Positions 886-15,116 of a DNA stretch of 56,215 nt are shown here, in pieces. Positions within the stretch are counted from its first letter, which is position 1; every line of letters starts with the position of its first letter. The DNA is taken from positions 1-56,215 of the forward strand of contig JADBJK010000022.1 in the NCBI GenBank assembly GCA_014874485.1, written 5' to 3'. Under the pieces are notes generated by a model that was not told the DNA's origin, did no database searches, and saw only the letters and a program-made list of their open reading frames with translations. Made by a program: the position numbers and the translations under genes. This DNA is from Chloroflexota bacterium (GTDB lineage: Bacteria; Chloroflexota; Anaerolineae; DTLA01).

Positions 886-3800
886 TCATCGTGCCATCAT
901 CATGGTGGCCAGCGTGGTAACCTCGCCGGTTGTGGCCAACTTGTACGGGTCCAGGGTGTCGGGCGCGTCCAGCGGCGTGTGGAGATTCTCCGCGTTGGGC
1001 CAGAACAGGAGCACCGAGGGGACGCCGCGGTCGCGGAAGACCGCATGGGTGTTGCCGCCTTTGTACGCCTCGGGCGACACGCGCCGCTCCAACAGGTCGG
1101 CGGCCAGGCGCAGGTTGAACAGCAGCGTTGCCTCCAGGCCGTCCTTCTCGCCCTCCAGGTTCAGGTAGTAACTGCGTGCCGCGCCGACGGTGTCCAACTC
1201 CAGGAGACCCAGGGTGCCCTCCAGCGGGACGGGTGGCTGGTCGGCGTAGAGGCGGGAACTGGCGAGTCCTGCCTCTTCCGCGCCCCAGGCGACGAAGTAG
1301 ATGGGCCGCGACGGGCGGAATCCGCTTTCGGCCAGCACCCGCGCCACCTCCAGCATGACGGCGACGCCCGATGCATTCTTGTTCGCGCCTGGGTACAGCG
1401 TGCCATCGGGCAGGCTGCCCACGCCGTCGTAGTGCGCGCCGATGACCAGCGGGCGGGCGTCGGCGCGTTCGCCTGGGAGCACGCCGATCACCGTCAGCGC
1501 CTGCGCGGCCTGCGGTGCGCTGTAGGGCACGGTCAGGTGCGCTTTCAGGGAAAGCAGCAGGGCGCGCGGGGCGTTGTTGGCTTCGTACGGCGTCAGCCCC
1601 GCCATCTTGATGAGGTCGCGCCAGGTGCTTTCCTGAATCTGCACGACGGGGATGGTCTCGGCGTTCAGCGCCCGCGACGGCACGGTGCGCTCGCGCAGGT
1701 TCAGCGACGCGTCCTTGACCACCAGGATCAGGCCGCCCGCGCCGTGGGCCCACGCGGCCTCGGCTTCGGCGGCGGGGTCGGCCGACTGGTACTTGAGGGC
1801 GATGCGCCCGCCCAGGCGGACACCCTCGGGGAACTCCTTCGGCAGCCAGACGAGTTCGGCCGTTCGGTCGCCGCCGCCTGCGAATCCGCCGACGACCTCG
1901 CGGAAGTCCTCGCAGTAGGCCAGGGCCACCTCGCCGCTGGTTACCGTGTCGGTGAAGCGCACGGCGGGCATGGCCGTGAGTTCCGCGTAGGAGACGGGAA
2001 CCGCCTGGAAGAACGAGCCGTCGGGCGCGCCGGGCTGCAGGCCGAGCGCCTGCATCTGTTCTGCGATCCAGCGGGCGGCGGCTTCTGCGCCGGGACTGCC
2101 TGCCCTGCGGCCTGCGAAGTCCTCGGAAGCCAGCGCCCGCACCGTGCCCAGCGCCCGGTCTGCGCTGAAGCTCTGGGCCGCGCGGATGAGTTCCGCGGGC
2201 ACACCGCCCAGCCGCACGGCCTCCTGCCACTGCGGCTCCCAGTCGGAGAACGGCATGCGCGCCGCCACGGCGAACGCCTGCGCGAACCCCCGGCCTTCGC
2301 CCATGGCGCGCAGCAGGCGGTTCAGGCTGTCCAGCCCGAACTGACGGACGAACTCGTTCACGAACATCCATGACTGGCCGTAGTAGAGCGTCGTGTCCTG
2401 CTCGGCCACTTGGTCATAGGTGGGCATGTTGGCCCAGTCCAGCAGTTTCTGCGTGCGCTGGGCTTCGCGGACGGCGGGCACATACCGCGCCTGTGCCGAG
2501 GCTGCGGTCTCCGGTGCGGCCCGCATGCTCTCAAACACGGCGACGCCTTCGTGGAGCCACTCCAAGTCCACTCCCAGGTCAAACAGCGCGCGGTGCGTGA
2601 ACTCGTGGGCGATGAGGCTCACGAAGTCCAGTCCCTTGGCTCCCGTCCAAATCTTGATGGCCTCGCCGGGCTCGTACCAGCCCTTGGCCCACGAGGGCAC
2701 GGATAGCAGGATGGACGCCAGCATCGCGGACTGGTCGTCGTACAACTTGATTTCGGTAACCGACGCGGGCGCGTAGTCCAGGTCGGCGGTTACCTGGGCG
2801 TAGGCGCGTTCGGCAGCGTCCAGGACGGCGCGGGCGGTCTCCTGCGTCGTCGGGGGCGTGTACTTGACCACGAAGTGCTCGCCCTGCTCTGCCGTCCAGT
2901 CCGGCCCGGCCAGCACCCAGCGGTCGCCGACCTTGACAAAGCGGACCGGATGCCAGGCGTGGATGGATTTGCCGCTCTCCTTCAGCACGGCGCTCATTTC
3001 CAGATTGACCAGCGCGCCGCCTTTGTCCAGGCCCAGGAGTTGGGCGTTGAGGTCGTAGGAACTCACGGGGTGTTTCGCCAAATCGTCAAACCAGTGGCCC
3101 TCTTCGGCCAGGAACACGGCGTCGTCGGGGTTGACGGTAGCGAGGAAGGCGGCTTTGTCGCCCGTCCGCACGGCGTCCTCGCGCTGGCGTAGCGTTTGGT
3201 CTATGCCCGCGCGGGCCTCGGCGAGCGGGGCCATGACCGCGGTCTCCCAAGCCTGGGCGAAGGCGTCGGGCGTGGTGTCCAGCGCCGCGAAGGCTCCCCC
3301 CTGCGTTCCCGTCCGCGCCCAGCCCGCGCAGAACTTGCGGACCCCGTCAGGCCCGTAGGTGCGCATGAAGTAGTCGGTCAGGCTCCAGGCCACCGCACTG
3401 CTGCGCTCGTCAAAGGCGTCGGCTGTCAGGGTGAGCACCCGCTGGGCCGACACCGTGCCGTCCAGCAGGGGCGTCATCTCGCGGGCGAGGGCGCGCTGCG
3501 CGTCGGGGTCGCCCGCTGCCGCTATCCATCGTATGAGGCCCACACCGAGCCACGCGCCCTCCTGCGGGGGCATGCCGAGTTCGGCGCGCACCAGGTTGAC
3601 CGCGGTCGGCGTGATGGCGTCGGTGCGGGCGATGTGGTATCCCGGAAGGGGCGAGTATTCGCCGATGCCCGCGCCCGCCAGCCACGAGAAGGTGTTCCTA
3701 TCCGGGTACACGGTGAGGGTGATGGGTTGCGGGTTGCGCAGGCCCAGGGCCAGCGCCACGCGAAGCCGCGCCTGAGCCAGCGAATCGGCCCAGTCCTGGT

Positions 3801-5745
3801 CGGTCTCGCTCCCGCGCACCATCTGAACCGTGAGCGCGGGCGCCTTGATCGTGCTGGCGATGGGCCAGGTGGCGTACCATTCCGCCGCGCGACGCACCAT
3901 CTGGGCGGGGTACGTGGCGAGCACCGACCGTCGGCCGTCCTTGTCCAGCGAAGCCGCGGTAACGTCGGCCTGCGCGGTGTCGCCCGAAACCAAGAGATTG
4001 CTCACCGTGAGGGTGTAGCCTTGACGCACGTCCACGGGCCGCGTCGCCAGCCAGTCCTGCCCGGCCTGGCGGAGCGCAGCGTCGGCGGGGTCCAGCGTGG
4101 CGACGTAGGCGTCGGCGTCGCCCGCGGCGATGGCCTGGGACTGGGAGTCCAGCAGGGCACGCAGGCGCGGCTGCACCGTGGACAGGACGATGGCGGCATG
4201 GGACGCGATGGCCCCCGCCTGGCGCAAGCGTTCGGGCTGGAGCGTGTCGGGCGTGTCCTGGGGCGTGTGGTAGTAGGGCACGTCGGCGTTGTCCCAGATG
4301 AGCAGCGCAGCGGGGACATTGGCCCGAAGGAAGGCCGCGTGGTCGCTGCCGCCCTGGAACGAGACCTCGCCCGTCGTTACGCCGAACAGCGCCGCGCTGG
4401 CCTGCAACTGCCGCCCCACGGCGTTGTTGATGCCATCCAGGGTCAAGATGCCATCGGATGCCAAGCCCACCATGTCCAACTGGATCATGCCGACGGTGGC
4501 GGTGAGGGGGTAGCGCGGGTTCTGCACGTAGTGCTCCGCGCCCAGCAGCCCCTGCTCCTCGGCATCCCACGCGGCGAAGACCACCGTCGTGTCGGGGACG
4601 AACCCGGCGGCCTGCCACGAGCGGGCGATTTCCAGCAGGACCGCCGTGCCCGAAGCGTTGTCGTTCGCGCCGCGGTAGATGTCGCCGTTGGCGTCGGTGC
4701 CCAGGTGGTCGTAGTGGGCGCCGATGATGACGACCTTGTCGCGCTGGGTCGGGTCGCGGCCCGGCAGCACGCCCAGGACGTTCCGGGCTTCGGCCTCGCC
4801 CGGCTCGTTTAGGGACACCTCAAAATGCGCCGAGACATTCAGCGGTACGGCGCGGTACAGGAGCGACAGGTCGTCCAGCGTGTAGCCGCTGTCGGCCAGA
4901 AGGGCCTCGGCCACCTGGGGCAGCACGATGAGGGTGGGCAGGCTCTTGGGCAGGTAGTTCGGCTGGCGGTACGTGCGGATGCGGTCCACGCGACTCTCGG
5001 CGTCGGTGAGCAGGATGAGGCCGCTCGCGCCGTGCTCCAGCGCCTGGCGGTACACCTCGTCGCTGGCCGAGAAGCGGCAGAAGGCGATCTGCCCGGCCAC
5101 ATCCACGCCGCGGAAGTCCTCGGCGCGGCAGTCGTTGGCCCAAACCACGCGCCCGCTGGCGGTCCCGCCCCCGGCGTACCCGCCCCAGGCGAAGGCGAAG
5201 TCCTTGCGGTACACGAAGTCGTCGTACACCGTGCCGGTCGTGGTGGTGAAGACGAAGGTGGGCACGCCCGTGATTTCGGCGAACGGGACGGTGAACGGCT
5301 GGAAGTAGCCGTCAGTTCCGGCAGGTTGCAGGCCGAACTCCTGGAACTTCTGGGCGATGTACTCGCCCGCGGCACGCCCGCCGTCGGTGCCGGGCTGTCG
5401 CCCCCCGAGTTCCGGCGCAGCGAGCGTTTCCACGAAGTCCATGGCCTCTTCGGCGTCAAAAGAGCGGGCGACGGCCAGCAGGTCGCCGCTCGCCACCGCC
5501 GGCCCGGGTTCGCGCACCACCGGCTGCACGGCTGGCGTCTGCACGGGCGCGGGCGTGGGCTTGCCGGGCGCGGGCGTCGTCGTGGGGCGCGGCTTGACGG
5601 CGGCAGGCGTCGGGGCCACCGCAGAGGGCGCAGCATGGCGTTGCAGGGCCTGCGCCCCGGCCCAGATAAGCCCCGCTTCCAGCACAAGCAGCGCCGCAAT
5701 CAGGGCGATGAGTACGTTTCGGTTCAGGTTGCGTAGTTTGGTCAT
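886..5745 (-). CDS. Exported multi-domain metallopeptidase (M28, degenerate MA-like, MA-type gluzincin, second M28)
   Basis: A 1619-residue protein with an N-terminal signal anchor (about residues 9-30) and a Pro/Thr-rich linker. The first M28 aminopeptidase domain (about 100-540) keeps every expected dizinc residue: H344, D362, E396/E397, D424 and H493. A second segment (about 660-850) resembles a peptidase-MA fold but lacks HExxH. A third domain (about 970-1200) has HEFTH at 1047-1051 followed by WLHEG, a complete gluzincin site. A second M28 copy (about 1230-1600) keeps H1438 and E1490/E1491, but the bridging Asp of the GANDN motif is Lys1456 (codon AAG). It is the last gene of a four-gene minus-strand operon with two permeases and a TolB-like protein. 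Likely role: extracellular peptide hydrolysis. Substrate unknown. Confidence 0.85.
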   Translation of the reverse strand: MTKLRNLNRNVLIALIAALLVLEAGLIWAGAQALQRHAAPSAVAPTPAAVKPRPTTTPAPGKPTPAPVQTPAVQPVVREPGPAVASGDLLAVARSFDAEEAMDFVETLAAPELGGRQPGTDGGRAAGEYIAQKFQEFGLQPAGTDGYFQPFTVPFAEITGVPTFVFTTTTGTVYDDFVYRKDFAFAWGGYAGGGTASGRVVWANDCRAEDFRGVDVAGQIAFCRFSASDEVYRQALEHGASGLILLTDAESRVDRIRTYRQPNYLPKSLPTLIVLPQVAEALLADSGYTLDDLSLLYRAVPLNVSAHFEVSLNEPGEAEARNVLGVLPGRDPTQRDKVVIIGAHYDHLGTDANGDIYRGANDNASGTAVLLEIARSWQAAGFVPDTTVVFAAWDAEEQGLLGAEHYVQNPRYPLTATVGMIQLDMVGLASDGILTLDGINNAVGRQLQASAALFGVTTGEVSFQGGSDHAAFLRANVPAALLIWDNADVPYYHTPQDTPDTLQPERLRQAGAIASHAAIVLSTVQPRLRALLDSQSQAIAAGDADAYVATLDPADAALRQAGQDWLATRPVDVRQGYTLTVSNLLVSGDTAQADVTAASLDKDGRRSVLATYPAQMVRRAAEWYATWPIASTIKAPALTVQMVRGSETDQDWADSLAQARLRVALALGLRNPQPITLTVYPDRNTFSWLAGAGIGEYSPLPGYHIARTDAITPTAVNLVRAELGMPPQEGAWLGVGLIRWIAAAGDPDAQRALAREMTPLLDGTVSAQRVLTLTADAFDERSSAVAWSLTDYFMRTYGPDGVRKFCAGWARTGTQGGAFAALDTTPDAFAQAWETAVMAPLAEARAGIDQTLRQREDAVRTGDKAAFLATVNPDDAVFLAEEGHWFDDLAKHPVSSYDLNAQLLGLDKGGALVNLEMSAVLKESGKSIHAWHPVRFVKVGDRWVLAGPDWTAEQGEHFVVKYTPPTTQETARAVLDAAERAYAQVTADLDYAPASVTEIKLYDDQSAMLASILLSVPSWAKGWYEPGEAIKIWTGAKGLDFVSLIAHEFTHRALFDLGVDLEWLHEGVAVFESMRAAPETAASAQARYVPAVREAQRTQKLLDWANMPTYDQVAEQDTTLYYGQSWMFVNEFVRQFGLDSLNRLLRAMGEGRGFAQAFAVAARMPFSDWEPQWQEAVRLGGVPAELIRAAQSFSADRALGTVRALASEDFAGRRAGSPGAEAAARWIAEQMQALGLQPGAPDGSFFQAVPVSYAELTAMPAVRFTDTVTSGEVALAYCEDFREVVGGFAGGGDRTAELVWLPKEFPEGVRLGGRIALKYQSADPAAEAEAAWAHGAGGLILVVKDASLNLRERTVPSRALNAETIPVVQIQESTWRDLIKMAGLTPYEANNAPRALLLSLKAHLTVPYSAPQAAQALTVIGVLPGERADARPLVIGAHYDGVGSLPDGTLYPGANKNASGVAVMLEVARVLAESGFRPSRPIYFVAWGAEEAGLASSRLYADQPPVPLEGTLGLLELDTVGAARSYYLNLEGEKDGLEATLLFNLRLAADLLERRVSPEAYKGGNTHAVFRDRGVPSVLLFWPNAENLHTPLDAPDTLDPYKLATTGEVTTLATMMMAR

Positions 5746-5872
5746 TGTACGAGCCTTTAGCGATCAGCCATTGGCCGTTCGCCATTGGCCTTTAGCCCTT
5801 GGCCTCTTGCCCGTTACACGTGGGTACGGGCCGATGGCTATCGGCTAATGGCCAAAGGCTACTGGTCAAAGG
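5746..5872. repeat. Intergenic short-unit repeat (TTGGCC/TTAGCC type)
   Basis: Fills the whole gap between two operon genes. The left half is 7-8 bp units such as CATTGGCC and TTTAGCCC. The right half carries the reverse-complement units GGCTAATGGCC and AAAGGCTACTGG, so the RNA can fold into a long imperfect hairpin. The same element fills 7064-7148 and 9582-9680 and recurs near 25670-25715. Confidence 0.7.
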
Positions 5873-7063
5873 CTACTGGCTTCCTGGCCTCCACACGGCC
5901 AGCGCTTCCAGGCCGGGATTGTCCGGGAACGCGAACAGCGCGCCCGTCTTGGTGTCCAGAATCCACAGGTTCCCGTCGGGGAGCGAGCCTTGCCCCTCCC
6001 AGAAGAGGGAATAGGACAGGTACACCCCGTCGGGCGACCAGGCCAGGTCCTGGGGCGAGGACTGGCGGTCGCCTGCGATTGGGAACGTGGCAGCCATCCC
6101 GTCTTCCAGCGTGTAGATGTACAGCACGTAGGCCCCCTGGCCGTCGTCCCAGGCGGTCGCTGCCAGCCTCGCGCCGTCGGGCGACCAGGCCAAGTCCATG
6201 ACGTAGCCCCGCTCCAGCAGCGCGTGGTCGCCCGTCCCGTCGGGCCGCACCAGGCGCACGCCGTTGCCCTTCTCCACGTTCGTGTACGCGAGCCACTCGC
6301 CGGTCGGGGACCAGCGCACCTGCGTCGCGTCTCGGGCGGCGAGGGACAGCGTGCGGTCGGTCAGGCGATACACCCAGGCGGCTACGGGGATGGGGCTGCT
6401 CTCCGGCAGCGTGGGCGCGCGACCCGGCGGGACGTTGATGACCCCCGTGTACGCGATAAGGGCCAGCGATTGGCCGTCGGGCGCCCAACTCACCGCCGTC
6501 GCGCTGACGGTCGGCGTGAGCGGCTGGGTCTCCGTGGCCAGCGTCGCCGCGTTCACGATGACCAACTCACCCGTGATGGGGCCGCCTTCCCGCCCAGGCG
6601 CAACCATACGCAGCCAGGCGACGCGCCGCCCGTCGGGAGACCATGCCGGTTCTACCCACCCGAAGTCCGATAGATCACCAAGTCGGCGCTCCACGGGCTT
6701 GGCGCCGTCCAGGGTCATCAGGTACACGCCACTGGCGGAGTCTCCGCCGCCCCGCGTTGTTGCAGCAACCCGCAAGAAGGCCAGCATCTTGCCGTCTGGC
6801 GACCAGGCCGGGTACACCTCGTGTTCGGGCGTCTGGGTCAGCGGCTTGATGGTGCGACCCGCCGGGTCGGCCAGGTACAGGTCCAGGCTGCCCTCGGTGC
6901 CGACGGCGGCGTAGGCGATCTGGCGCCCGCCCTGCGCTTCCGACGGCGGCCGCAGCCACAGGTACGCCACGGCCGCGGCGGTGAGGAGCACGCACACCCC
7001 CAGCGCCACGACGACGCGGGCGAGGATGGTATTCAGTTTGCTCGGTAGCGCGTCGGTGTTCAT
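5873..7063 (-). CDS. Membrane-anchored TolB-like beta-propeller protein
   Basis: A 396-residue protein with one N-terminal transmembrane helix (about 14-36). At least six PD40/WD40-like repeats follow, each with a variant of W-S-P-D-G, for example AWSPDGKMLAFL, PAWSPDGRRVAWL, RWSPTGEWLAY and AWSPDGVYLSYS. This is the TolB/DPP-IV-type propeller family, which binds proteins or peptides and has no catalytic residues of its own. Third gene of the permease-peptidase operon. Probable role: an outward-facing scaffold or recognition module working with the M28 proteins around it; the specific partner is inferred from context only. Confidence 0.8.
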   Translation of the reverse strand: MNTDALPSKLNTILARVVVALGVCVLLTAAAVAYLWLRPPSEAQGGRQIAYAAVGTEGSLDLYLADPAGRTIKPLTQTPEHEVYPAWSPDGKMLAFLRVAATTRGGGDSASGVYLMTLDGAKPVERRLGDLSDFGWVEPAWSPDGRRVAWLRMVAPGREGGPITGELVIVNAATLATETQPLTPTVSATAVSWAPDGQSLALIAYTGVINVPPGRAPTLPESSPIPVAAWVYRLTDRTLSLAARDATQVRWSPTGEWLAYTNVEKGNGVRLVRPDGTGDHALLERGYVMDLAWSPDGARLAATAWDDGQGAYVLYIYTLEDGMAATFPIAGDRQSSPQDLAWSPDGVYLSYSLFWEGQGSLPDGNLWILDTKTGALFAFPDNPGLEALAVWRPGSQ

Positions 7064-7148
7064 AGTCCTCAGCCATTGGCCGTTTGCCTTTGGCCTCTAG
7101 CCCTTGTCGTCGGCCAGAAGCTGACGGCTAGAGGCTAACGGCTCTCGG
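7064..7148. repeat. Intergenic short-unit repeat (TTGGCC/TTAGCC type)
   Basis: Second copy of the hairpin-forming repeat that separates genes in this operon. Left units are CATTGGCC and TTTGGCCTCTAGCCC; right units are GGCTAGAGGCTAACGGC. It fills the gap between the stop of the fused permease gene and the start of the propeller gene. Confidence 0.65.
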
Positions 7149-9581
7149 CTAGTAATGGTACTGCCTGCTGGCGGTGATGAGCGCCAGGTTCACAATCTGG
7201 CCGACCCTGCCGATGCGGGCGGCCTCTGCGTCGTCGGGCGCGCCGCCCCGGAAGGCGTCGGGCGCACCGTCCCAGGCCAGCGTGGCCGATTTGTCGGCCA
7301 GTTCTCTGCAATAGGCATGGGCGCAGGCGGTCCCCCTGATGACGGAAGCGCCCGTAACCTGGCCGCTGCGCTTCAGCAACTCGCTCAGGGTATTGCTCTT
7401 GGCCTCGGCCAGGAGCGGGTCCTCACCGCCGCCTACGCTGCCCAGGTGAATCACCGCGTTGCGGTCCAGCGAGCGGTAGGGCGTGAACTCGGCCAGGTAC
7501 GTTTGGGCGCCGGACGTGTCGGCGTACCCCGCCGCCCACACGTTGAACAGCACCGTGCGGCGCGGCTTGAACTGCTCGGCGTGCCACAGGCGCGCGATCT
7601 CCAACAGGATGCCCACGCCTGCCGGGCCGTCGCTGGCCGACAGGAACGGGCGGTCCGGGTCCGGCTCCGGCATGTCGTAGTGCGTGGACACGACCAGCGC
7701 CTCTTTGTCCAGTGCCGTGTCGTTTCCGGGCAGGATGCCCAGGACGTTGTAGCCGGTGCGCTCCTGCGGTTCGGCCAATTCCACCCGCGCGCGCACCTGC
7801 ACCGCCAGCGTCTGCGTGAACCAGGGCCTGTCGGGGGACGACGCCGCGAACTCGTCCACCAGCGCCTGCAGGTCGGCCACGGTGTAGCCCGCCAGTTGCA
7901 GCAGGCGGTCGGCGGCTTCGGGGCGGACGTGCAGGATGGGGATCGTGGGCTTCTCCATGAAGCCGAACTCGCCCGATGGCCAATCGGTGTGCGGCGCGGC
8001 GTCGTCGGCAACGATGAGGATGGCCTGCGCGCCGCGGATGAGCGCCTCGGTGTCAAAGGCGGAGGGCATGTTCTTGCCCAGCACCAGCGCAACCTGCCCG
8101 CGCAAGTCCAGCCCGCGGAAGTCGGCGTAGCGCACGTTCTGCCGCGCGAAGCCCACGAAGGTGAGCGGGGCGTCGGCGCTGCCCGAACCGCCGTGCCGAT
8201 ACACCTGCTCGCCGAAGTCTGCGCCGTGGGTCAGGGCCACCGTCTGCCCCGCCGCCTCGGCTTCCAGGATCGGCGTGCGGATGCGCGGGGCGATCATGCG
8301 GGTTACCTCTTGCAGGTAACTCTGCCCACCTCCCGCAGGCAGAATGCCATAGGCTTCCATCTGCTCCGCGATGTACTCGGCGGCGGCGCGAGAGCCTTCG
8401 GTGCCGAAGCCTGGGTCGGCTTGCTGGAGTTCTACGATGCGCGTGGCATGCCCCAGGGCGCGCTCGGCGTCAAACTGGCTCGCCAGTTTCGCGTAGGACA
8501 CGCCCGGGCTGATCTGGTTCACGATGTACCACGTGAGGAGCGTGATGGCGGCGACGACCACCACCATGCGCTTGGAGATGATGGCGGCGGTGTTGACCCC
8601 GGCCTCGCGGACGATGCGCCGCAGTCCCTCGCCCATCAGGTTGAACCCCAGGACGGCCACGAAGAAGGCCATGGCCGGCCAGAAGACCATCCAGGGCGAC
8701 GTGCGGATGTAGGCGCGTGCGCCCGCCAGCATGGCGCCCCACTCGGGCACGTCGGCGATGGCAACCGTCCCGCTGAACCCCTCGGTCTGGGAACCGCCGC
8801 CGATGAACACGCCCACGAACCCCAGTTCGCCCAGGATCATCAGCACGGCGCCCATCTCCAGCAGCGTCAGCACCACCAGCGCGGGCAGGACGTTGGGCAG
8901 GATGTGGCGCACGATGATGCCGCCCTCGGTGAGGCCGATGACCCGCGCGCCTTCCACAAAGGGCCGCTCGCGCAGACTGACGAACTCGCTGCGGATGTAC
9001 TGGGCGATCTCGCCCCATCCCACCAGGCACAGCGCGATGAGGAAGGCCGACAGCCCTTTGCGGATGTCCAGCGCCAGGATGAGGATCATGCCGGTCAGGA
9101 GCATGGGCAGCGACGACAGGATTTCCACCAGGCCCATGATGATGCGGTCGGACAGGCTGCCGGGCCGCCAGCCGGCGATGGCCCCCAGCCCGAACCCCAA
9201 CAAGAGCCGCGCCATGGTTACGAACAGGCACGCCACCAGCGTGTTGCGCGCGCCGTACAGCAGCAGGCTCAACACATCCCGGCCCCACTGATCCGAACCC
9301 AGCGGGAACTCGTCCGACGGCGGGAAGGGCGGGAAGACCAACTGCCCGTTGATCATCTCGGACGAGCGCTGGGCCGACAGGTACGGGTTCTGCGACGCGA
9401 AGCGCGGCCCGACCACCGCCACCGCCAGCAGGAACACCACGATGAGCATTCCCGCCATGAACGGGAAGTTGAGCGTGATGAGCCGCCAGCGGAACCGCCC
9501 CGTGCGGATGGGCGCGTCGGGGTCGCTTTTGTCGCGCGGCTTCTGCCCTATTCGTTTCAGGCTATCCAGCAGTCGTAACAT
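7149..9581 (-). CDS. OppC/DppC-type ABC permease fused to a degenerate M28 peptidase ectodomain
   Basis: An 810-residue protein. Residues 1-330 are a typical peptide/nickel ABC permease of the DppC family: N-terminal helix at 41-58, a further helical core, and the EAA loop (EGARVIGLTEGG into HILPNVLP) at 210-233. An extra helix at about 338-356 leads to a C-terminal M28-like domain (360-810) predicted outside the cell. That domain keeps H634 and D651, but the catalytic and zinc glutamates are Gly685 and Tyr686, the next Asp is Gly714, and the last His aligns with Arg778. It is therefore very likely not a peptidase and may bind peptides instead. The start was chosen at MLRLL because upstream in-frame codons are intergenic repeat. 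No ATPase gene lies nearby. Confidence 0.85.
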   Translation of the reverse strand: MLRLLDSLKRIGQKPRDKSDPDAPIRTGRFRWRLITLNFPFMAGMLIVVFLLAVAVVGPRFASQNPYLSAQRSSEMINGQLVFPPFPPSDEFPLGSDQWGRDVLSLLLYGARNTLVACLFVTMARLLLGFGLGAIAGWRPGSLSDRIIMGLVEILSSLPMLLTGMILILALDIRKGLSAFLIALCLVGWGEIAQYIRSEFVSLRERPFVEGARVIGLTEGGIIVRHILPNVLPALVVLTLLEMGAVLMILGELGFVGVFIGGGSQTEGFSGTVAIADVPEWGAMLAGARAYIRTSPWMVFWPAMAFFVAVLGFNLMGEGLRRIVREAGVNTAAIISKRMVVVVAAITLLTWYIVNQISPGVSYAKLASQFDAERALGHATRIVELQQADPGFGTEGSRAAAEYIAEQMEAYGILPAGGGQSYLQEVTRMIAPRIRTPILEAEAAGQTVALTHGADFGEQVYRHGGSGSADAPLTFVGFARQNVRYADFRGLDLRGQVALVLGKNMPSAFDTEALIRGAQAILIVADDAAPHTDWPSGEFGFMEKPTIPILHVRPEAADRLLQLAGYTVADLQALVDEFAASSPDRPWFTQTLAVQVRARVELAEPQERTGYNVLGILPGNDTALDKEALVVSTHYDMPEPDPDRPFLSASDGPAGVGILLEIARLWHAEQFKPRRTVLFNVWAAGYADTSGAQTYLAEFTPYRSLDRNAVIHLGSVGGGEDPLLAEAKSNTLSELLKRSGQVTGASVIRGTACAHAYCRELADKSATLAWDGAPDAFRGGAPDDAEAARIGRVGQIVNLALITASRQYHY

Positions 9582-9680
9582 TGAAAACGCTCTTGGCCGT
9601 TGGCAGTTAGCCTCTGGCCGTTGGCCGTTAGCCAATGGCCAGAACCTGACCGCTAACGGCTGACGGCTGTAGGCCACGGG
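9582..9680. repeat. Intergenic short-unit repeat (TTGGCC/TTAGCC type)
   Basis: Third copy of the operon's gap-filling repeat: CTTGGCCGTTGGCAGTTAGCC on the left and reverse-complement CTAACGGCTGACGGCT units on the right. It fills the space between the two permease genes and would put a spurious leader on the fused permease if read as coding. Confidence 0.65.
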
Positions 9681-10601
9681 CTAAAGGCTCTTCTTCAGCC
9701 TCGGATCCACATACCGATACGAGATGTCCAGCAGCAAGTTCACGAGCATGAACGTGAGTCCGATGACCAGCGCCATGCCCGCCACGCCGATGTCCTGGCG
9801 GTTGCGGATGGCGTCCAGCAGGGCCGCGCCGATGCCCGGCCAGCCCAGGAAGTACTCCACCACCGGCAGACTCCCCAGCGAGAACCGCAGCGACACGCCC
9901 AGCGCCGTCAAGATGGGCACGGCGGCATTGGGATAGGCGTGGCCGCGGGTTACCATGGATTTGTACAGGCCCTTGGCGTGGGCCGTGCGGATGTAGTCCT
10001 GCTCCAGAATCTCCGAGAACGCCATGTAGGCGATGCGGGCCAGGTGGGCCAGGGGCCGCGCCGCCAGCACCAGGGTCGGGATGACCAGGTGGGCGTCCCA
10101 TCCGAACCCGCCGACCGGCACGAGCCGCACGCCCGTGGCCCGGAACCAGTAGATTTCCGCGATCTGGAGCAGGGCGGCGGCGAAGAAACTCGGGACCGAG
10201 ACGCCGATGAGGGTCAGCGTCATCGTGCCGAGCGAGACCGGCGACCGGCGGTGGATGGCCGCGAAAACGCCGACGGGGATGCCGATGAGCGCCGCCACCA
10301 GGAGCGAGATGAGCAGCAAGCCCATGCTCTTGGGGTAGGTGTCGCCGATGGTTGCGGCCACGCTCACCTGCCGCGACGAGCGCCCGGAGCGCACCGTGAT
10401 GGCGCCCATGTCGCCATGCAGGAGACGGCCCACGTAGTCCAGCGTGGACGTCCAGGCGTACTCGGCGGCGGGGATGGGGTTGTACGACGGCGCGGGCGAT
10501 GTGGAGTTGCGCGCCATGCGCATCCCGAAGAAGGCGAAGAACACAATCCCCAGGCTGACCGCCAGGATGAAAACCAGCCTCTTGAGCGCGAATCGGATCA
10601 T
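9681..10601 (-). CDS. OppB/DppB-type ABC transporter permease
   Basis: A 306-residue integral membrane protein of the binding-protein-dependent permease family (DppB type). It starts MIRFALKRLVFILAVS, has five or six further hydrophobic segments, and a cytoplasmic loop reading EQDYIRTAHAKGL before LTALGV, the usual EAA-type contact for the ATPase. The in-frame Met 20 codons upstream was rejected because MIRFALKR is the canonical family start and has AGAGAG upstream. First gene of the operon. It would form the translocation channel with the downstream OppC-M28 fusion. The oligopeptide-binding protein and the two ATPases are absent from this window. Confidence 0.88.
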   Translation of the reverse strand: MIRFALKRLVFILAVSLGIVFFAFFGMRMARNSTSPAPSYNPIPAAEYAWTSTLDYVGRLLHGDMGAITVRSGRSSRQVSVAATIGDTYPKSMGLLLISLLVAALIGIPVGVFAAIHRRSPVSLGTMTLTLIGVSVPSFFAAALLQIAEIYWFRATGVRLVPVGGFGWDAHLVIPTLVLAARPLAHLARIAYMAFSEILEQDYIRTAHAKGLYKSMVTRGHAYPNAAVPILTALGVSLRFSLGSLPVVEYFLGWPGIGAALLDAIRNRQDIGVAGMALVIGLTFMLVNLLLDISYRYVDPRLKKSL

Positions 10602-10632
10602 CGGACTCTCTGCTAGAGCTTGCTTTGGCCCC

Positions 10633-10661
10633 AGTATACGCCGAAGGGCGCTTTCAGGCAA
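10633..10661 (-). promoter_or_regulatory. Candidate sigma-70 promoter of the permease-peptidase operon
   Basis: Minus strand: TTGCCT at 10661-10656, 17-bp spacer, TATACT at 10638-10633. Expected start about 25 nt ahead of the OppB start codon. Confidence 0.5.
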
Positions 10662-10745
10662 AGGCGTTCACAACATGTACAAGGGGCGGCGCGCGCCGGT
10701 TCAACGGTGCAGAGTACCCGCCGCGGCGTCGCTGCGTTGAGCCTA

Positions 10746-10775
10746 TTGACGGTTGGGATTCCCATCCGCTAGAAT
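10746..10775 (+). promoter_or_regulatory. Candidate sigma-70 promoter of the S74 repeat-protein gene
   Basis: TTGACG at 10746-10751, 18-bp spacer, TAGAAT at 10770-10775. It leaves a roughly 110-nt leader before the ATG at 10892, which is preceded by AAAGGAG. Confidence 0.6.
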
Positions 10776-10891
10776 GCAGTATCGGCATGTACCACAAGGC
10801 GGCGGGCGGCGTGGGCAACCCCTCGGAGCATGAGCCACCACCCGCCACAGTTGCAGGCATCTGTCGTCCGCACGACGAAAGGAGCGCAACC

Positions 10892-13063
10892 ATGAAGATG
10901 CGGGTTTTCCTCACTCTGCTTGTCCTCTCGGTGCTCTTGGTTACCCCTGGCATGGCCCAGGGACCCGAACCCCAGATGACGGTGGGCACGCCGTTCACCT
11001 ACCAGGGCGTCCTGCGCAGCAACAACAATCCCGTCAGCGGGACGTGCGACTTCCAGTTCAGCCTGTGGGATTCGGCATCGGGCGGGTCGCAAGTCGGGGC
11101 GACGTGGCCCCAGGCGGGCGTTACGGTAACGCGGGGGCTGTTCACCGTCCTGCTGGACTTCGGCTCGGCGCCGTTCCAGGGCGCGAACCGCTACCTGGAG
11201 GTGGCCGTCCGCTGCCCGGCGGGGAGCGGTGCGTACACGACGCTGTCGCCGCGCCAGGCGCTGACGCCCGCGCCCTACGCGCTGTACGCTGCCGCGGCGC
11301 ACTGGGCCAACCTGCTGGGCATACCGGCGGGGTTCGCCGACAACGTGGACAACGACACCACGTACACGGCGGGCGCGGGTCTCACGCTCGTGGGCACGCA
11401 GTTCAACGTGGTCTTCGCGGGAACGGGCACAGCGAGCACCGTGGCGCGGTCGGATCATGACCACGACGCCCGCTACTGGAAACTGGGCGGCAACAGCGGC
11501 ACGACGCCGGGCGTGAACTACCTGGGCACCAGCGACAACACGCCGCTGGAACTGAAGGTGAACAGCCTGCGCGCCCTGCGCCTGGAGCCAAGCAACATCA
11601 GCCCCAATGTCGTCGCGGGCTTCCCCGGCAACAACGTCATCGCGGGCGGCGCGGGCGGCACCGTGAGCGGCGGAGGCGGGTCGGGCACGACCAACCGGGT
11701 AACCGATTCCTACGGGACGGTGGGCGGCGGGTCCGACAACCAGGCGGGCAATGGCAATACGGATATCGCAGACGCCATGCATGCGACGGTGGGCGGCGGC
11801 TTCCGGGGCACCGCCGGCGCGGCGTATGCCACCGTGGCAGGGGGCTATGGGAACACGGCAAACAACACATTCACCACGGTGGGCGGCGGGAACACCAACA
11901 CGGCCAGCGGGCTGATTTCAACGGTCGCCGGCGGTTGGGGCAATGAAGCCAGCGGCGCGCAAGCCACGATTGCCGGAGGCTGGGGCAACATCGCCAGTGG
12001 ACAGCAGGCCACCGTTGGTGGTGGAAAGACCAACACTGCCAGCGCTATGGCAGCCACCGTGGGCGGCGGCCAGGAGAACAGGGCGCAATCGCCGTTCTCC
12101 ACCATCGGCGGCGGGCTGAGCAACCAGGCCAGCGGCGAGCGTGCTACCATCGCGGGCGGTGCGGGCAACCTGGTTACCGCCTATGCCGCGACGGTGGGCG
12201 GAGGAATGTACAACGTCGTGGCTGGTACGCGCGGGACCATTGCCGGCGGACAGGACAACGTCGTCAGCGGCACCCACTCGTTTATCGGCGCGGGCACGGG
12301 CAATGTGATCACGAATTCATACGCAGTGGTCGGCGGGGGTTGGCAAAATACAGTGGCGCACGATTATGCCGTTGTCGGCGGCGGCCACCGCAACGCCGTT
12401 ACAGGCCAGTACGCGGTGATCGGCGGCGGCATGAGCAACTCCGCGAGTGCTCCCTGGTCTGTGGTCCCCGGCGGAAGCGGCAACTCGGCTGCCGGTTCCT
12501 ATTCCTTTGCGGCGGGCCGGCGCGCCCAGGCGAACGCGCAAGGGTGTTTCGTCTGGGGCGATTCCACCGATGCGGACGTGGCGTGTAGCGCCGCGAACCA
12601 GTGGGTGGTGCGGGCCAGCGGCGGCGTGTACTTCTACAGCAACTCCGCTCTGACCGCAGGGGTGTACCTGCCTGCAGGGGCCAGCGCCTGGCAGCCGGTC
12701 CCAGCGCCCAGCGACCGCAACCTGAAGGAAAACATCCAGCCGGTGGACGTGAAAGACATCCTGAAGCGCCTGCAACAGGTGCCCATCGCCAAGTGGAACT
12801 ACATCGCGGACCAGCCAGTGCCGCACATCGGCCCGATGGCCCAGGACTTCTACGCGGCGTTCGGCGTCGGAGAGGATGAACTGCACATCTCCACGATTGA
12901 CGCCAACGGCGTGGCCCTGGCCGCCATCCAGGGGCTGTATCAGATCGTGCAGGAGAAAGACGCGCAAATCGCTGCCCAGCAGAAGCAGATTGACGACCTG
13001 CAGGCCCGGCTTTCGGCGCTGGAGGCGCTGGTGGCGCAGTTGGCGAAGGAGGGAGGGCGGTGA
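10892..13063 (+). CDS. Secreted tail-fibre/adhesin-like repeat protein with C-terminal S74 intramolecular chaperone
   Basis: A 723-residue protein with a signal peptide ending near AQG. An N-terminal domain (about 30-155) begins GTPFTYQGVL and is shared with the 40543-42849 gene. Residues about 240-590 are a long array of 14-16-residue repeats of the type TVGGGxxNxASGxxAT, like YadA/Hep-Hag head repeats that form trimeric beta-prisms. The C-terminus is a Peptidase_S74 domain: S607-D-R-N-L-K612 carries the Ser and Lys pair used for self-cleavage in phage endosialidase chaperones, followed by GPMAQDFYAAFGVG and a terminal coiled coil. Likely a trimeric surface or secreted fibre. No phage genes are nearby. 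Its stop codon overlaps the next start. Confidence 0.85.
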   Translation: MKMRVFLTLLVLSVLLVTPGMAQGPEPQMTVGTPFTYQGVLRSNNNPVSGTCDFQFSLWDSASGGSQVGATWPQAGVTVTRGLFTVLLDFGSAPFQGANRYLEVAVRCPAGSGAYTTLSPRQALTPAPYALYAAAAHWANLLGIPAGFADNVDNDTTYTAGAGLTLVGTQFNVVFAGTGTASTVARSDHDHDARYWKLGGNSGTTPGVNYLGTSDNTPLELKVNSLRALRLEPSNISPNVVAGFPGNNVIAGGAGGTVSGGGGSGTTNRVTDSYGTVGGGSDNQAGNGNTDIADAMHATVGGGFRGTAGAAYATVAGGYGNTANNTFTTVGGGNTNTASGLISTVAGGWGNEASGAQATIAGGWGNIASGQQATVGGGKTNTASAMAATVGGGQENRAQSPFSTIGGGLSNQASGERATIAGGAGNLVTAYAATVGGGMYNVVAGTRGTIAGGQDNVVSGTHSFIGAGTGNVITNSYAVVGGGWQNTVAHDYAVVGGGHRNAVTGQYAVIGGGMSNSASAPWSVVPGGSGNSAAGSYSFAAGRRAQANAQGCFVWGDSTDADVACSAANQWVVRASGGVYFYSNSALTAGVYLPAGASAWQPVPAPSDRNLKENIQPVDVKDILKRLQQVPIAKWNYIADQPVPHIGPMAQDFYAAFGVGEDELHISTIDANGVALAAIQGLYQIVQEKDAQIAAQQKQIDDLQARLSALEALVAQLAKEGGR

Positions 13064-13362
13064 ACAGCAATCAGCAATCAGCCGTCAGCCGTCAGCGGCT
13101 GGCTGTCAGAATCGGCGTGGTCGCCTCGGTTGCGCTGCTCCTGATGGTGGGCGCGGCGTTGGCGAACGGCGGGTACGAGGTTCCGTGGTTCACGGTGGAC
13201 GGGGGAGGGGGCGAGAGCGCGGGCGGCGGGTTCACGCTGGCGGGCACGGTGGGCCAGGCCGACGCGGGCGTCCTGTCGGGCGGGTCGTACACGCTGGCGG
13301 GCGGGTTCTGGCCGGGCGCGGGCGCCAACTTCCTGCGCTTCCTGCCGATTGTGATGAAATAG
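13060..13362 (+). CDS. Small exported GTxGQ-DAG / GGFW protein, partner of the repeat protein
   Basis: A 100-residue protein starting in an ATGA overlap with the S74 gene, so translationally coupled. Signal peptide to about residue 36. The mature part has the pattern W-F-T-V-D-GGGG, then GTVGQADAG, then YTLAGGFW, ending FLPIVMK. The same pattern and ending occur in the 40231-40524 protein, which follows the paralogous large gene. The first ~18 codons lie in a CAGCCGTCAGC-type repeat, so the n-region of the signal peptide appears to be made of repeat DNA. Function unknown; the pairing suggests an accessory or cap for the secreted fibre. Confidence 0.75.
   Translation: MNSNQQSAVSRQRLAVRIGVVASVALLLMVGAALANGGYEVPWFTVDGGGGESAGGGFTLAGTVGQADAGVLSGGSYTLAGGFWPGAGANFLRFLPIVMK
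13064..13112. repeat. CAGC(G/C)GTCAGC-type short repeat inside a coding region
   Basis: Units CAATCAGC, CGTCAGC and CGTCAGCGG in direct order. The same family lies at 14624-14672, 19085-19145 and 38216-38333, always at gene ends or starts. Here it encodes the N-terminus of the small exported protein. Confidence 0.6.
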
Positions 13363-14608: not shown

Positions 14609-14623
14609 AGTTGCACTCCTGTA

Positions 14624-14672
14624 AGCGGTCAGCGGTCAGCAGTCAGCGGTCAGCGGTCAGCGGTCAGCCATC
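14624..14672. repeat. CAGCGGTCAGC short repeat
   Basis: About six units of GGTCAGC/GCGGTCAGC between the PLP-enzyme start and the DNPH1-like stop. The last codons of the DNPH1-like gene run into it. Confidence 0.65.
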
Positions 14673-15116
14673 GGTGGCGGATGGTTGTTCGCCGCTCGCG
14701 GATTGGCGCGACAGGAACTCGTCCACCAGGGCCAGCGCCTCGGCTTCGTCGGCGTAAGCGCGCACGGTGATGCCCGGCTCGGTGCAGCCCAGGATCATCT
14801 TGGACAGGGGCCGCCCCTGCTGGTACAGGCACAGCACGGGTTTGCCATGCGTCAGGGCATAGCAGATTTCGTAGCCCACGCCCAGCGACGGGGTGGAGAC
14901 CTCGGCCACCAGGCAATCGCTCGCGCGAATCCAGGCCACGTCGCGCTCGTACACCTGCTGGGGCGTGTTGGCCGCCTCCTCGTCCAGCACGTTGTCGCGG
15001 GTTACGTGGACGGTGGGGACGGTGTGGCCCCGCGACTGGATGTGCGCCACGATGCGGCGGAACGTGGCGACATGGGTTCGCTCTCCCATGATGGTTCCCG
15101 CGAAGTACACTTGCAT
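14664..15116 (-). CDS. DNPH1-like 2'-deoxynucleoside 5'-phosphate N-hydrolase / nucleoside deoxyribosyltransferase family
   Basis: A 150-residue protein of the nucleoside deoxyribosyltransferase superfamily. It begins MQVYFAGTI, the phosphate-binding strand of the family, and has AEVSTPSLGVGYEI, in which the Glu just after Ala and the later GVGYE match the catalytic region of DNPH1/RCL. The family cleaves the N-glycosidic bond of deoxynucleoside monophosphates and so sanitises the nucleotide pool; it belongs with salvage, as does phosphopentomutase nearby. Start supported by CAGGAG twelve nucleotides upstream. The last ten residues are low-complexity and overlap a repeat, so the original C-terminus may have been extended. 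Confidence 0.75.
   Translation of the reverse strand: MQVYFAGTIMGERTHVATFRRIVAHIQSRGHTVPTVHVTRDNVLDEEAANTPQQVYERDVAWIRASDCLVAEVSTPSLGVGYEICYALTHGKPVLCLYQQGRPLSKMILGCTEPGITVRAYADEAEALALVDEFLSRQSASGEQPSATDG

Follow-up and report, generated by a model that had tools for sequence, protein, structure and literature searches.

An Opp/Dpp-type ABC permease fused on one chain to an M28-type aminopeptidase domain that has lost its active site has been identified in a 56,215-nt stretch of DNA from a Chloroflexota bacterium (below, the window), and alignment or an HMM confirmed the fusion in about 84 Chloroflexota proteins, mostly from Anaerolineae (45 in alignment A1 and 39 more; the total is approximate, as a few genes are counted twice via two collections). 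That these fused permease–pseudo-peptidases constitute a real family we consider virtually certain. The ectodomain of the family is a former protease, its active site lost and its fold preserved, and it is probably a built-in site at which peptides are caught or docked, not an enzyme.

The window gene occupies positions 7149–9581 of the minus strand, which also carries all other window features described below unless stated otherwise, and encodes 810 aa from the ATG at 9581; the GTG start at 9677 yields 842 aa, reaching the intergenic repeat. In the same frame Pfam identifies BPD_transp_1 at residues 129–317 (6e-19) and Peptidase_M28 at residues 612–737 (2.5e-10), and full-length orthologues are present in independent assemblies. 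The sequence-only reading had described a DppC-type permease, an extra helix and an M28-like domain on one chain, and the single uninterrupted 810-aa frame, together with Pfam, the alignment and AF2, bears this out. Its 450-residue M28-like domain is indeed predicted to have the M28 fold, while the size and content are amended to a PA insert plus M28, about 454 residues (357–810).

The same reading had named a frameshift or assembly join between two genes, and relatives with separate permease and M28 genes, as observations that would speak against it. Neither is seen. Same-genus orthologues in two other assemblies (G001, G002) carry the same unbroken fusion with 87% and 93% identity, as do L006–L010 from independent assemblies (44–93% identity), and L011 comprises the permease part only, after which the contig ends. 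The permease-only query against 392 genomes of the class yielded 88 matches at E≤1e-70, held by 69 genomes; 86 of the 88 lie in open frames of 601–1501 aa, the two exceptions being cut by the contig end (G023) or by an in-frame stop (G243), and no close relative with separate permease and M28 genes was observed among them. Weaker permease matches begin at 5e-51 and form a group of their own, 14 rows whose frames measure 305–791 aa. Whole-protein matches at E≤1e-60 were found in five of 400 genomes evenly sampling the phylum; outside the phylum, the fusion architecture was searched for with close-relative patterns. A literature search, with subscription papers outside its reach, found no paper on a permease–M28 fusion. 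The in-frame stop in one of 88 relatives would fit an artefact, in which two genes were linked by an assembly join, a frameshift or an overlooked stop, but the same fusion is present in dozens of independent assemblies, including the single-contig genome G250, and substitutions are synonymous-biased on both sides of the junction and across it. These observations refute a join or frameshift for the family, and the probability of an artefact is negligible.

The permease part comprises residues 39–327 with TM1–TM6 (8601–9467; Pfam and profile matches, AF2). NikC, DppC and OppC profiles match it at residues about 40–323, with scores far under every equivalog cut-off. The EAA-type coupling loop covers residues 200–232 (8886–8984) and contains EGARVIGLTEGGIIVRHILPN; its G216, H226 and P229 are invariant across 45 fused proteins. 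The window has the C-type permease core, the OppB partner and the loop for ATPase docking that characterize Opp/Dpp-type importers, and since the coupling loop is conserved, ATP-driven transport by the fusion permease is likely, judging by sequence. The protein resembles C subunits of Opp/Dpp/Nik permeases (BPD_transp_1, OppC_N) in the profile match, the OppB partner and the EAA loop, and differs from them in having TM7 and a 454-residue ectodomain, and in having no SBP or OppD/F gene close to the window operon. The additional helix TM7 is predicted to span residues 338–356 (8514–8570; AF2 and K/R distribution). The mean number of K and R residues is 4.1 before TM7 and 1.5 after it, the former exceeding the latter in 44 of 45 proteins, so TM7 runs from inside to outside and the PA+M28 ectodomain (residues 357–810; 7152–8513; Pfam, AF2, structural matches) is extracytoplasmic, in agreement with its earlier placement outside the channel.

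The AF2 model of the window protein, based on the alignment of 45 family members (pLDDT 82.9, pTM 0.77), has an ordered M28 fold after TM7, with a PA-like insert at about residues 440–600 (7782–8264), seen in the predicted secondary structure and in PA-containing structural matches. The PDB structures nearest to the predicted ectodomain are 2EK8, BSAP (6HC6), PaAP (8AC7) and transferrin receptor 1, and Pfam, AF2 and structural matches agree in assigning the PA-M28 fold; a PDB sequence search with the window ectodomain gave no match at E≤0.01. Out of the two-zinc site residues of active M28 enzymes (H, D, catalytic E, E, D, H), only H634 (7680–7682) and D651 (7629–7631) are retained in the window protein. 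The catalytic Glu-Glu is replaced by G685-Y686 (7524–7529), the third metal-binding Asp by G714, and no counterpart can be recognized for the final His motif (SDH in active paralogues); the alignment thus agrees with the initial description of Gly-Tyr in place of Glu-Glu, with loss of further ligands and retention of H634 and D651. Compared to PA-domain M28 aminopeptidases (2EK8, BSAP, PaAP), the family domain is predicted to fold in the same way, PA insert included, but has lost the catalytic Glu and most metal-binding residues, and is tethered to a permease.

Of the 84 fused domains, 81 have G, S, A, T or L in the column of the catalytic Glu. The Glu is retained in L112 and L113, where other residues are missing, and in L211, which has all five aligned catalytic positions; four of the five are kept in eight fused proteins. 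These eight, and L211 with its H, D, E, E, D and terminal His motif, are what could be expected if the fused domain had kept enzymatic activity, be it with a changed chemistry or in certain members only, but this is highly unlikely given the general loss of the catalytic Glu and the absence from the window protein of this residue, its neighbor, the third Asp and the terminal His motif. The H634 position is kept in 19 of 45 fused proteins; as the old cleft is this poorly conserved, no binding chemistry stands out as common to the members. In comparisons with G002 and G001, dN/dS is 0.15–0.19 for the ectodomain, 0.05–0.06 for the permease, lower than for the ectodomain, the PD40 protein and the giant protease encoded nearby, and 0.12–0.14 for the first M28 domain (M28a) of that protease. 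As the ectodomain values are close to those of the active M28a, the dead domain is maintained by purifying selection.

The gene order in the window is OppB, OppC::pseudo-M28, PD40 propeller, giant M28-MA-M28 protease, all on the minus strand. The OppB-type partner permease (9681–10661, with the ATG at about 10601 as the likely start; BPD_transp_1, 7.5e-31) is syntenic in double-fusion loci. The PD40/WD40-like propeller (5873–7063; PD40, 6e-25), with an N-terminal membrane anchor predicted by sequence, is a recurring neighbor. The giant extracytoplasmic protease (886–5745), identified by Pfam, active-site residues and synteny, consists of an intact M28, a Peptidase_MA (HEFTH...WLHEG) and a second, partly degenerate M28. 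This order is found again in many double-fusion loci, and the first M28 of the giant protease is intact in 15 of 15 cases; in the triple-fusion loci opened the giant protease is absent. In the second M28 of the window's giant protease the bridging Asp is replaced by K (ANKNASG) and Glu-Glu is kept; relatives differ in how degenerate this domain is. Arrays of 7/14-base repeats (e.g., GTCAGCGGTCAGC) at 5750–5820, 7055–7111, 9593–9649, 13070–13111 and 14621–14676 are intergenic and separate genes of the fusion operon and its neighbors. On the plus strand, an ORF at 10625–13063 has GGGxxNTASG-type repeat units, and its C-terminal part, by our reading of the sequence, resembles an intramolecular-chaperone domain.

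In 42 loci, neither an SBP_bac_5 gene nor an OppD/F-type ATPase gene was found next to the fusion; 22 of these loci extend 5 kb or more to each side of it. The SBPs of the window's genome supplied the SBP search profile, whose controls scored about 1e-230; such OppD/F-like matches as the 42 loci contain are weaker and seem to come from other ABC families. Across the window's genome there are 14 SBP_bac_5 and 12 oligo_HPY matches, and contigs C99 and C93 carry none of these. Multi-genome SBP and ATPase lists, which stop at about 150 rows, did not enter any count. An orphan ATPase pair on contig C15 was considered as the cognate ATPases and rejected, as it follows a canonical DppC at the contig end. 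In a later set, an SBP_bac_5 gene adjoins OppB::OppC::M28 in L174 and L182, so the ectodomain is not an SBP substitute everywhere, and a canonical Opp permease adjoins the triple fusion in L176, L182 and L187; given these neighbors, some members may use ordinary SBPs. Near several triple fusions we also observe a lipoprotein-like protein of about 600 aa without a Pfam family above the cut-off (L187, 2268–4148; L192, 2255–4045; L191, 991–2802; L176, 2218–3981; L174, 3265–5022).

The single chain OppB::OppC::M28 is the commonest form among the loci opened, and the second copy in the window's genome, on contig C93, is of this type; such a chain is predicted, with good confidence, as a single unit (pLDDT 86.7, pTM 0.73). 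In six loci (L047, L111, L112, L113, L172, L173) a LolD-like ABC domain is added at the N-terminus, giving LolD-like ABC::OppB::OppC::pseudo-M28. The LSGGQ signature is absent in all six; L047, L172 and L173 retain Walker A, which L111–L113 have lost. In L047, L111, L112 and L113 the gene comes after a MacB-like permease and an HlyD-like adaptor. Without LSGGQ and next to MacB/HlyD genes, this ATPase is unsupported as a general partner of the family.

Locus L211 (G615:C15, 6737–10090), from a distant relative in another family of the phylum, encodes OppC::M28 with H, D, E, E, D and the SDH motif, and a second intact M28 is encoded just downstream. Its sequence shares the TM7-GP...Y...FD...A junction. 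A 98* branch of the M28 tree sets the dead fused domains apart, and the intact domain of L211 groups with the active enzymes; in the permease tree the placement of the G615 OppC is unsure due to a long branch. As L211 keeps the fusion with an intact active site, its sequence suggests a fused ancestor with an active peptidase.

We tentatively favor, with a probability of about 0.4, a tethered pseudo-peptidase receptor that takes peptides released by the co-encoded protease and delivers them to OppBC, the ATPases being shared in trans. By this scheme, a C-type subunit of an Opp/Dpp-type ABC transporter would have gained TM7 and a tethered, non-cutting PA-M28 domain at its C-terminus; the old substrate cleft of this domain would bind peptides or peptide ends, including those freed by the active M28/MA protease of the same operon, and the domain would pass them to the OppB–OppC channel for import. 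The ATPases would be supplied by other Opp operons; a precedent is the sharing of ATPases between type I importers (PMC7658222). The receptor role fits the anatomy read from the sequences: the 42 loci lack an SBP, the coupling loop is intact, and the operon also encodes an active, secreted M28/MA protease. As the non-catalytic fold is retained, selected, tethered outside and located near such a protease, a receptor or docking platform is the best reading, and of these two the receptor is preferred. On the other hand, the old cleft chemistry is poorly conserved, and some members may work alongside ordinary SBPs. The stronger proposal, that a dead aminopeptidase domain replaced the SBP in a new importer class, having descended from an active peptidase that was anchored at the entrance of the channel (cf. 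G615), is possible but doubtful.

The main rival, a docking or regulatory platform, with the pseudo-peptidase gating the channel or keeping the giant protease, the propeller or an SBP at its mouth, and the transported peptide left unbound, seems somewhat unlikely. It agrees with the recurrence of the four-gene operon in many double-fusion loci, with the likewise degenerate second M28 of the giant protease, and with the SBP or canonical Opp permease adjoining some triple fusions, but the giant protease is missing from the triple-fusion loci opened and so is not an obligate partner. Still less probable is that OppBC no longer transports and is a membrane scaffold or sensor, its ectodomain serving signaling or adhesion: the lack of a nearby ATPase or SBP, and the quadruple fusions, with no LSGGQ in their ABC domain and four of them beside MacB/HlyD genes, point in this direction, but the invariant coupling-loop residues, the low dN/dS of the permease and the lack of an attached signaling domain argue against it.

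Transferrin receptor 1 and nicastrin, eukaryotic single-pass proteins and not ABC permeases, offer a parallel in working, a dead M28 fold acting as a receptor, with kinship claimed for the M28 fold only. Nicastrin has been described as a substrate receptor whose ectodomain is aminopeptidase-like (PMC2647162). The importers GlnPQ and OpuA carry a receptor domain on the permease chain, as here, but theirs are SBP folds (for GlnPQ, extracytoplasmic receptor domains fused to the permease, PMC8025302), in place of which this family has a pseudo-peptidase. Nicastrin and GlnPQ are thus parallels for a possible way of working, not for kinship.

The natural OppB::OppC::M28 chains would be convenient single-chain targets for structure work. 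If the receptor reading is true, ABC importers would capture substrate with a fold other than that of SBPs, and one family would contain a series from enzyme to receptor, comprising the intact outgroup G615, dead doubles, triples and ABC-bearing quadruples. Moreover, the family would be a bacterial, testable parallel to the dead M28 receptors transferrin receptor 1 and nicastrin.
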